In this document: in pieces, positions 38,697 through 44,868 of the stretch
How positions within the stretch are numbered: position 1 is the stretch's first letter
How the letters are laid out: every line of letters starts with the position of its first letter
Source: a virus
IMG/VR virus record: IMGVR_UViG_3300005056_000003
Location: 1-64,000 of that record
Reading direction: 5' to 3' (one strand)
Length of the DNA: 64,000 nt
Program-made: the position numbers and the translations under genes
The notes under the pieces: generated by a model
Seen by the model: the letters and a program-made list of their open reading frames with translations, nothing else
Databases searched by the model: none
Told to the model about the DNA's origin: nothing

Positions 38697-39617
38697 TTAT
38701 AGATCGTTAATAAATGAGCTTACATTTTTAGAGGGCAAGTATAACCCTGCTTTTACGTGCTGTACTTTTTCCCCTTCTTCAACGTGTCCCGCTTCTAAAA
38801 TTACGTTATACTTTACTTTAAAAGCTTCTGCATCTGAACCAAAAAAGAAAAATCCGCCATATTTTGCAATTAAATCAATCTTCTTTTTTCCTGTCTTGGC
38901 TTTGGCTTCTTCTTCTTTCTCCCTGTTAATTAGCTGTATTTCTTCATCAGTTCCCCAAAGTTTAACAGCTAAATCTATATTTTTCTTTGCGTCTTTTACT
39001 CTTTTACCTGCATAGGTTAATGAGTAACTGTGCACTCTTTGGCTTGGGTTGTCTTTTAAATTTTTATGCTCCTTAGTGGCTTCTAATAGCTTAAATTCGT
39101 AAAAACTTAAACTTTCGGGCATAGATAAATTAATATCTTTGGCTTTTCTTTCCCAATATTCGGCCCTATTTATATAGTCTTTTGCTTTTTCGCTTTCTTC
39201 AACACTTTTACCCATTTGCGCCCATGCTCTTTCAATGGTTTTACGGTGTCTTCTTTCGCTGTGGTGTCCTATTAAAATAGGCTGACCGAATGGAATACCT
39301 GTTGCATTTTCTGACATATCAGATTTTTTGTAAGCCTCTGTACTTCTTTTTTCTGCGTTGCTTGCATAACCGTTTAACTTTTCGGCTTTTTTCTTGGCTC
39401 TTTCTTGACTATTAAAACCGTCGCGCCTTGTAATAGAATACAAATAAAAACCGTCTGCCGTTTTGCCTAGATAATTGTGTACCTCACATTCATGCTCCTG
39501 TCCGTATTTGGTGGTTAAAATAATAGTTTCCCCTTTTTCGTGCTTTCCTGTACATTTTGCCACAAATACATTAGGGCAATATTTTTTATAGGTGTTTTCT
39601 GCTGTTGCTGTTTCCAT
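38697..39617 (-). CDS. DUF3560 family protein
   Basis: 306 residues. Near residues 108-125 is GIPFGQPILIGHHSERRHRK, the DUF3560 hallmark. N-terminal residues 1-60 form a strand domain with Cys/His (YCPNVFVAKCTGKHEKGETI). Long charged helices follow. The family is widespread in plasmids and phages; its molecular role is unknown. Preceded by the GGGGC hairpin spacer at 39654-39680. Confidence 0.8.
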   Translation of the reverse strand: METATAENTYKKYCPNVFVAKCTGKHEKGETIILTTKYGQEHECEVHNYLGKTADGFYLYSITRRDGFNSQERAKKKAEKLNGYASNAEKRSTEAYKKSDMSENATGIPFGQPILIGHHSERRHRKTIERAWAQMGKSVEESEKAKDYINRAEYWERKAKDINLSMPESLSFYEFKLLEATKEHKNLKDNPSQRVHSYSLTYAGKRVKDAKKNIDLAVKLWGTDEEIQLINREKEEEAKAKTGKKKIDLIAKYGGFFFFGSDAEAFKVKYNVILEAGHVEEGEKVQHVKAGLYLPSKNVSSFINDL

Positions 39618-43472: not shown

Positions 43473-43874
43473 ATGGACAAAAGGTTATTACATATCGTTG
43501 ATAAGTATTGGATTCCTAGATATAAAAAGGTTTACTACAACAATTCCGTTGAGTATTGGGGGTATAGCGCCAATCAATATCGACCTTATTCGACTACAAT
43601 GCTTAGAATGTTTGTCACCGATTTCTATGGAGTTGACGGTAGATTGCTTCATAACATTGTCAATGGTGTAAACAGAACCGATAGCTATGTCAAGTCAGGA
43701 GGATCCTTTGTGAGTTATGAAAAGCATAAAGATATTATTGGGCGCAACCAATTTTATAAAGCAATGGCGGTCTTTAAAGAGCTTGAGATATTAATACCTG
43801 TAGGTTACAATTACTATATTTTCAATGAAAGATATATCTATAAAATAAAAAATGTTGTTTTAGACAAGGAATAG
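43473..43874 (+). CDS. small winged-helix protein, RepL-like replication initiator candidate
   Basis: 133 residues from ATG 43473. The second half (IIGRNQFYKAMAVFKELEIL, then IPVGYNYYIFNERYIYKI) resembles the winged-helix end of RepL-type plasmid replication proteins: a helix, an I-x-P turn, then a strand ending in N-E/P-x-x-I/Y. The first half is Tyr/Arg-rich. It is alone behind a perfect promoter with operators and an attenuator, next to iterons, all typical of a copy-controlled replication gene. Family link is tentative. Confidence 0.55.
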   Translation: MDKRLLHIVDKYWIPRYKKVYYNNSVEYWGYSANQYRPYSTTMLRMFVTDFYGVDGRLLHNIVNGVNRTDSYVKSGGSFVSYEKHKDIIGRNQFYKAMAVFKELEILIPVGYNYYIFNERYIYKIKNVVLDKE

Positions 43875-43875
43875 T

Positions 43876-43905
43876 TTTGTAGTTACAATGTATTTACTAT
43901 CTTTG
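43876..43905 (+). promoter_or_regulatory. promoter of the permuted tmRNA
   Basis: TTTG (43876-43879), 18 bases, TATCTTTG (43898-43905). It starts two bases after the stop codon of the Rep-like gene. The predicted start near 43912 is the first base of the acceptor piece's long helix. Confidence 0.85.
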
Positions 43906-43910
43906 TCGCT

Positions 43911-44164
43911 TAATGATTTGTTGACGTTTTGAATAAATATGTTTGGACGAGGGTTCGACTCCCTCCGACTCCACTAAGTTTAGAAAGTGTGGGGAGCTAG
44001 TTACTCCCTCTTGGGGTCGCTTGGATTTGACAGCATAAGGAAGCATTACCGAGAATCATTTAACCATAACTGTAAAAGTTATAAACCTTTTTACTCCACA
44101 GCTTAGAGCGGTGGCGTAGAACGTTACGGGGAGAAACGACAGGCGTAAGCCACTCCCCTTTTTT
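43911..44164 (+). ncRNA. ssrA: tmRNA in circularly permuted gene order
   Basis: The 3' part of tmRNA comes first: GGACGAGGGTTCGACTCCCT (43944-43963), with T arm GAGGG-TTCGACT-CCCTC, then CGACTCC and ACTA. After a 35-base spacer with a GGGAG/CTCCC hairpin comes the 5' part, GGGGTCGCTTGGATTTGACA (44013-44032). The acceptor stem GGGGTCG/CGACTCC pairs over 7 bp with one G-U. Helix 2 pairs GCATA with TATGT and AATCATT (44054-44060) with AATGATT (43912-43918). A hairpin (44066-44082) precedes, after 10 bases, a frame ACT CCA CAG CTT AGA GCG GTG GCG TAG (44093-44119): candidate tag TPQLRAVA. A pseudoknot (44112-44158) and six T end the RNA. Processing would give two pieces, as in other permuted tmRNAs. 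The tag frame is the least certain part. Confidence 0.85.
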
Positions 44165-44175
44165 AATTCTTAAAT

Positions 44176-44472
44176 ATGAAAGCTAAATATTTTAAAAAGT
44201 TACGTGAAAAGTCTGATTGGTATGACGTAGAGGTTACTAAAGGGTTGTTTGGAGAGTTTCTTGGATTTGATAAAGAAGGTTTCAGGCAAAGCGATTACAT
44301 TACGGTATTAGCCACTAGCTACGAAAACGCTTGCTTAAGAGCGTGTAGGCGTGGTTATGGCAGAATACACTTCGGAATGTTTAACGTTAGTCCTCAGAAT
44401 TGGGCTAGGTTTGCGGTTAAACTTACAAAGAAAAACAACCATTGGAGGAACATTGCTTATAGAGGAAATTAA
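44176..44472 (+). CDS. small basic phage protein, unknown
   Basis: 98 residues, start ATG 44176 just after the tmRNA terminator. Basic start (KAKYFKKLREKSDWYDVEV), then GLFGEFLGFDKEGFRQSDYI, CRRGYGRIHFGMFNVSPQNW. I recall similar phage proteins of this layout. Function unknown. Confidence 0.65.
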   Translation: MKAKYFKKLREKSDWYDVEVTKGLFGEFLGFDKEGFRQSDYITVLATSYENACLRACRRGYGRIHFGMFNVSPQNWARFAVKLTKKNNHWRNIAYRGN

Positions 44473-44619: not shown

Positions 44620-44868
44620 ATGGCTACTAGAAAAGATTTACAGGAATGGCTTAATAGGTTCCCTGAAGACACGATAATTGAATTTGGAATACAACAACAG
44701 GCGGGAGCATACGAAAGCTACGGTAGTGTTGAGTTCAAAACACCAATCCTTAACGATTATGATGATGGTGATGGTTGGGAGTTTAGTGACTTTAGGAATA
44801 ACCAATTTGTTGAACCTGATTCAGATCATTTCGGTAAGTGTTACCTTAAAATCGGGGAACCATTATAA
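44620..44868 (+). CDS. small acidic phage protein, unknown
   Basis: 82 residues: TRKDLQEWLNRFPEDTIIEF at the start, a common opening of phage hypothetical proteins, then Gly/Tyr/Asp-rich part ending CYLKIGEPL. Two bases from the previous stop. Function unknown. Confidence 0.6.
   Translation: MATRKDLQEWLNRFPEDTIIEFGIQQQAGAYESYGSVEFKTPILNDYDDGDGWEFSDFRNNQFVEPDSDHFGKCYLKIGEPL

Follow-up and report, generated by a model that had tools for sequence, protein, structure and literature searches.

A circularly permuted tmRNA gene in a probable flavobacterial phage belongs to a conserved phage family with a likely separate origin of the permutation

Circularly permuted tmRNA has previously been known from three bacterial lineages, besides mitochondria. 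The general covariance model for such genes, RF04321 (tmRNA_permuted), is a merger of three older permuted models, RF01849, RF01850, and RF01851 (PMC11915505). Phages also carry two-piece tmRNAs, which made up 53 of the 133 unique phage tmRNAs in a January 2021 collection (PMC9004378). Like the gene described here, those of the methylophage Melnitz and other marine phages are phage-encoded and permuted; they differ in being of alphaproteobacterial lineage and linked to a glutamine riboswitch (PMC9004378). With the permuted tmRNAs of alpha- and betaproteobacteria and cyanobacteria, the present gene shares the order of the pieces, the acceptor stem, the T arm, helix 2, and the tag frame.

The gene lies in an IMG/VR phage record of 79,890 bases, of which 64,000, referred to as the window, were analysed. 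It occupies positions 43912-44164 of the + strand, between small open reading frames at 43473-43874 and 44176-44472. The large structural proteins of the phage resemble those of Tenacibaculum phage Gundel_1 (Pachyviridae) with 46–47% identity, and its structural proteins also match those of Cellulophaga phages and Maribacter phage Panino. The phage is related to the flavobacterial podophages, and these matches indicate that its host is most likely a flavobacterium or another member of the Bacteroidota. No further tRNA or tmRNA genes were found in the record, nor did a search for phage SmpB identify an SmpB gene there. A match to the S15 leader at 44642-44772 scored 18.5 bits against a cut-off of 39.5 and was put down to chance. 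On the minus strand, positions 38697-39617 encode a protein of 306 residues in which a DUF3560 domain is recognised (Pfam PF12083, E = 2.2e-38).

Neither ARAGORN nor RF04321 identified a tmRNA in Gundel_1. This phage, the closest named relative, does have an annotated ClpX-like Clp protease ATP-binding subunit (L206, 7823-8638). The tmRNA of Panino is permuted and those of the Cellulophaga phages phi38:1 and Calle_1 are standard. The one-piece genes of Calle_1 (L002, 2672-3031) and phi38:1 (L007, 1672-2031), the latter unannotated, have the Bacteroidota-type D-loop TTTGACAG. If read from TAAAC|GGA, their tag would be about 30 residues long and end in LNLEVAVGV, which is longer than the ARAGORN call.

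The first-pass annotation had proposed a phage-encoded, circularly permuted tmRNA in a Bacteroidetes phage, and the present analysis supports that identification. RF04321 recognises the site with 54.1 bits (E = 5.6e-9, cut-off 47) and ARAGORN reports it as a permuted gene (tmRNA*) with the tag VKVINLFTPQLRAVA. Sequence features by which RF04321 membership is judged are found in the window: the piece order, an acceptor stem with G3:U70, the T arm, helix 2, a tag frame with resume and stop codons, and a pseudoknot in the coding piece. As claimed, GGGGTCG (44013-44019) is preceded by the T arm and the 3' strand of the acceptor stem (43949-43972), and the 7-bp acceptor stem and the helix 2 pairings GCATA/TATGT and AATCATT/AATGATT are present, with compensatory changes across 50 sequences. 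Of the covariance models that had been suggested as a check, the general permuted model exceeds its cut-off in the window, while the alpha (RF01849, 19.9 bits against 50), beta (RF01850, 33.6 against 84), and cyano (RF01851, 30.1 against 70) models fall below theirs. The standard model RF00023 reaches 27 bits (cut-off 47) on the T arm alone, and the contiguous gene order is absent. The parts of the gene are collected in Table 1.

Table 1. Parts of the permuted tmRNA gene and its putative promoter (window coordinates).
Feature	Position	Strand	Sequence and evidence
Candidate Bacteroidota-type promoter	43876..43905	+	TTTG 43876-43879, 18-nt spacer, TATCTTTG 43898-43905
Acceptor piece	43912..43973	+	RF04321, ARAGORN, covariation in 50 sequences
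Helix 2 3' strands	distal 43912-43918; proximal 43938-43942	+	AATGATT; TATGT; within acceptor piece
Acceptor-piece linker		+	GTTTGGAC; within acceptor piece
T arm	43949-43965	+	
Acceptor 3' strand	43966-43972	+	CGACTCC, then discriminator A
Intervening spacer	43974..44012	+	39 nt; starts CTA; hairpin GGGGAG/CTCCC; presumably removed
Coding piece, 5' part	44013..44060	+	RF04321, covariation, Bacteroidota signature
Acceptor 5' strand	44013-44019	+	GGGGTCG
D-loop region		+	TGGATTTGACAG
Helix 2 5' strands	proximal 44033-44037; distal 44054-44060	+	GCATA; AATCATT
Tag frame and stop	44072..44119	+	VKVINLFTPQLRAVA, stop TAG, resume codon GTA; ARAGORN; in-frame constraint in relatives
Tag-end stem-loop	44096..44114	+	CCAC.GC/GC.GTGG, loop TTAGA; covaries in 24 relatives
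Coding piece, 3' end	44122..44164	+	pseudoknot CGTT 44122-44125/AACG 44135-44138; covariation of CGN/NCG pairing
3' hairpin and T run	44128-44133/44153-44158; T6 44159-44164	+	GGGGAG/CTCCCC; fold

What was overlooked in the first-pass annotation is that the window gene comes from a large phage family, conserved and apparently of independent origin. Family members were collected by blastn of phage records (Panino and the crAss-like cr10_1 and cr125_1) and by IMG/VR patterns with the D-loop TGGWTTTGAC, which yielded dozens more. A tag-derived pattern that does not include the D-loop added one member (L212) and refound others, all with TTTGAC. A covariance search across 395 genomes of the phylum contributed a further member, whose neighbours are genes for DNA polymerase, helicase, and exonuclease of phage type. 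Once duplicates and unclear cases had been set aside, the alignment held 50 non-identical sequences including the window, nearly all from phage contigs. Two other searches produced no members. The single IMG/VR match to a strict window-derived pattern was a standard tmRNA with GGGGTCG occurring after it by chance. When 84,980 bacterial genomes were searched with a permuted pattern, seven matches in Bacteroidota emerged, five loci of which are standard tmRNAs by ARAGORN; since all seven genomes hold an above-cut-off standard tmRNA, these matches reflect a chance CTCCAC upstream. RAGATH-9 RNAs occur near the permuted tmRNAs of cr125_1 (L004) and cr10_1 (L005, 628-806), and cr125_1 also has an above-cut-off Hatchet ribozyme match. 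The two elements of cr125_1 lie at 1788-1956 and 429-557.

The pairs of the window's own helices were projected onto the alignment and compared with 500 shuffles per helix. Pairing across the 50 sequences amounts to 95.7% in the acceptor stem (47 both-side changes), 99.2% in the T stem (62), 85.9% in proximal helix 2 (64), and 67.8% in distal helix 2 (65). None of the 500 shuffles matched any helix in percent paired or in both-side changes, and shifting the partner by 1–3 columns lowered the pairing to 28–74%. G3:U70 is found in all 50. The outer four acceptor pairs carry no weight here, since the search pattern prescribed them for most members, though not for the window, L003–L005, and L089; acceptor pairs 5–7 and helix 2 are unconstrained by the pattern and the T stem is partly constrained.

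The 5' end had been assigned to a perfect promoter. The -7 box TATCTTTG is indeed perfect; the full promoter pattern, with 5 occurrences in the window against 3.15 expected, is close to chance. In nine family members TAnnTTTG lies 41–48 nt upstream of GGAC. Thirteen others have a tRNA T arm 53–64 nt upstream of it, ending at the corresponding place, so the promoter-type and tRNA-junction arrangements place the start of the acceptor piece alike. The shared position of TAnnTTTG is better evidence for a promoter than the pattern match in the window. Spacers between the pieces are about 20–165 nt long within the family. CCA is unencoded in the window, where CTA is found, and encoded in about seven members.

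The peptide TPQLRAVA, first proposed as the tag, falls within what is really a 15-codon frame, VKVINLFTPQLRAVA, starting at 44072. The position of the resume codon follows from homology, as TAAcU|GGC is found in relatives and hosts; the codon is GTA (Val) in the window and GGC in most relatives. The family consensus is about GKVINLFNAPLRAVA, and the 15-residue tags of 24 members give approximately G-K-V-I-N/Q-L-F-N-A-P-L-R-A/M-A/V-A. Other tags of the family are GEQVEYAMAA, GNFYVTDYTRIAA, and longer ones. Among the 24 relatives, the pN/pS of the tag is 0.73 in frame, while the two remaining frames give 1.00 and 0.88, so that purifying selection on the peptide is visible yet mild. The stem at the end of the tag, with a TTAGA or TAAGA loop, is 64% paired against a shuffle mean of 50% (0 of 1000 as good), and the conservation of LR may be due in part to this RNA stem. 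Long permuted tags of about 26–50 codons were observed in phages (L076, 4512-4957; L079, 4435 onwards; L138, L139, L157, L159, L162, L169), both within the Bacteroidota family and among proteobacterial-type genes.

Both the pseudoknot and the T6 that had been described at the 3' end are present, and the pseudoknot is best drawn as CGTT/AACG, with AACG in the loop of the hairpin. The third pair of the CGN/NCG pairing, with pairs read by eye, is formed in 21 of 31 sequences against a mean of 13, a value reached by 13 of 10,000 shuffles. An alternative, GTGGC/GCCAC, was dropped for its lack of conservation in close relatives. When pseudoknots are disallowed, the minimum-energy fold of this end is a nested hairpin. 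The distance from helix 2 to the resume codon is only about 11 nt, leaving no room for a PK1 of the one-piece type.

The origin of the permutation was considered from the distribution of the genes and from their tRNA-like domains. A standard tmRNA scores above the cut-off in 60 of 61 genomes of the phylum and the permuted model in 1 of 395, at a phage-like locus; the permuted form occurs almost only in phages and the hosts keep a one-piece tmRNA. All three elements of the Bacteroidota signature, namely TTTGACAGC, GTTTGGAC, and TAAcUG at the resume site, are found in the window, and the TTTGAC D-loop occurs together with the linker GTTTGGAC in 10 of 60 one-piece genes. As the linker, 38 family members have TTTGGAC; of 32 permuted genes from viral records outside the family, 31 have CGGAC. 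A tree built on the tRNA-like domain contains a branch (94/89) that groups 49 of the 50 family members with 17 Bacteroidota one-piece genes, and the other permuted genes, drawn from viral contigs rather than curated alpha, beta, and cyano members, all fall on the opposite side. One phage domain is identical to that of a host one-piece gene. A single clade of all permuted genes was rejected by the AU test (p = 0.0055). Masking the D-loop (p = 0.0001) or keeping only those members found independently of the D-loop pattern (p = 0.007) led to the same rejection.

These comparisons suggest that the permutation arose separately in Bacteroidota phages from a Bacteroidota one-piece tmRNA. Given an alignment of about 56 columns, a family grouping chosen after the signatures had been seen, and possible adaptation to host SmpB and alanyl-tRNA synthetase (AlaRS), this is likely and not proven. 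The unlikely alternative is that the gene descends horizontally from an alpha-, beta-, or cyanobacterial permuted tmRNA whose tRNA-like domain later adapted to Bacteroidota hosts. The known permuted genes do have their break point in this same region of the molecule, the tree has about 56 columns, and co-evolution with host SmpB and AlaRS could imitate common ancestry; against this, the three lineage-specific models stay below their cut-offs, the linker, D-loop, and Gly resume codon are Bacteroidota-like, a single clade is rejected in all three AU tests, and one phage domain matches a host gene exactly. Modestly favoured is the fuller proposal of a fourth independent origin of permuted tmRNA, in Bacteroidota phages and not in bacteria, giving a compact molecule that dispenses with PK1 and whose conserved, phage-specific tag may route rescued proteins differently from the tag of the host.

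The anatomy, homology, covariation, and tag conservation of the gene, together with the separate affinity of its tRNA-like domain, are consistent with an RNA that would be transcribed, cut, charged, and used for tagging to the benefit of the phage. The roles of host SmpB, AlaRS, EF-Tu, and the processing enzymes are established parts of trans-translation. A single transcript would start near 43912 and end at the hairpin and T run near 44164. Host tRNA-processing enzymes would excise the 39-nt spacer, with RNase P acting at the GGGG end; the CTCCA end would undergo 3' trimming and be served by the CCA-adding enzyme. The products would be an acceptor piece of 62 nt and a coding piece of roughly 150 nt, joined through the acceptor stem and helix 2. 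The acceptor piece could then be charged by alanyl-tRNA synthetase via G3:U70, and host SmpB and EF-Tu would bring the tmRNA to ribosomes stalled on broken mRNA. The tag added would be (A)VKVINLFTPQLRAVA, whose small C-terminal residues would suit ClpXP-type proteolysis, and ribosomes might be kept free during infection while host mRNA is destroyed. Judged from the sequences compared, the locus is quite probably an active ssrA gene, belonging to a phage of Bacteroidota (probably of flavobacteria) and specifying a working two-piece tmRNA with its own permutation. Counted against this reading are the unencoded CCA, the GTA resume codon, the lack of SmpB in the phage and of a tmRNA in Gundel_1, the modest constraint on the tag, and an origin test of about 56 columns.

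It is distinctly improbable that the RNA instead acts as a decoy, blocking trans-translation in the host by binding its SmpB, AlaRS, or ribosomes, with no role in tagging. There is precedent in the reported tmRNA of mycobacteriophage DS6A, which consists of the tRNA-like domain only, and such RNA inhibits tmRNA (PMC4131195, PMC11915505); moreover, the family tags differ strongly from the ALAA type of the hosts. A decoy would have no need of a tag, yet the frame, length, and stem of the tag are conserved across the family, and this conservation of the tag and its context makes the role less likely. That the window holds a dead remnant of a captured tmRNA, as its non-canonical GTA codon and unencoded CCA might hint, is scarcely credible with all helices intact and covarying in the family, an RF04321 score far above chance, and a tag frame that is intact and matches those of its nearest relatives.

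The claim of novelty made at first has to be reduced, as phage two-piece tmRNAs are published and the records of Panino, cr10_1, and cr125_1 annotate a tmRNA that ARAGORN calls permuted. Permuted phage tmRNA is already known as a kind; the Bacteroidota-phage lineage seems undescribed. No such lineage appears in the literature covered on tmRNA in crAss-like, Bacteroides, and flavobacterial phages, which took in few subscription journals, and this statement is made apart from the supplementary tables of the tmRNA database paper, which may list such genes. If this widespread lineage did arise separately, permutation can arise anew, and phages can be its home while their hosts keep the one-piece gene. 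The family would also offer a tractable case for understanding why phages carry their own ribosome rescue and degradation tag, one that is testable in cultured marine phage-host pairs and bears on the crAss-like gut phages.

Two further phage tmRNAs were observed during the comparisons. Alcaligenes phage vB_Af_QDWS595 has an unannotated beta-type permuted tmRNA (L006, 1940-2322; tag ANDNVYAAAA) with an above-cut-off RF01850 score of 93.8 bits. Enterococcus phage Efs 1-1-1 has a standard tmRNA with the tag AKNENNSFALAA (L008, 675-1041), on an unverified, unannotated contig that may be host DNA.

Among known systems, the genes of Panino, cr10_1, and cr125_1 are the same in permuted order, the TTTGAC D-loop, the linker (GTTTGGAC or GTTAGGAC), a Gly or related resume codon, and tags ending in RQFA, LAVA, and RIAA. 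They differ in having other tags and spacers, and their records say "tmRNA" and leave the permuted state unmentioned. Other permuted genes that were sampled differ in having a TTCGAC D-loop, a CGGAC linker, and an Ala resume codon. The one-piece tmRNAs of the Bacteroidota (with tags such as GENNYALAA) share, in part of the phylum, the D-loop TTTGACAGC and the linker GTTTGGAC, as well as TAAcUGGC before and at the resume codon. They differ in that they are contiguous, 347–403 nt in total length in the sample, with tags of the ALAA or AMAA type and the resume codon at about 90–103, compared to about 60 in the permuted family.
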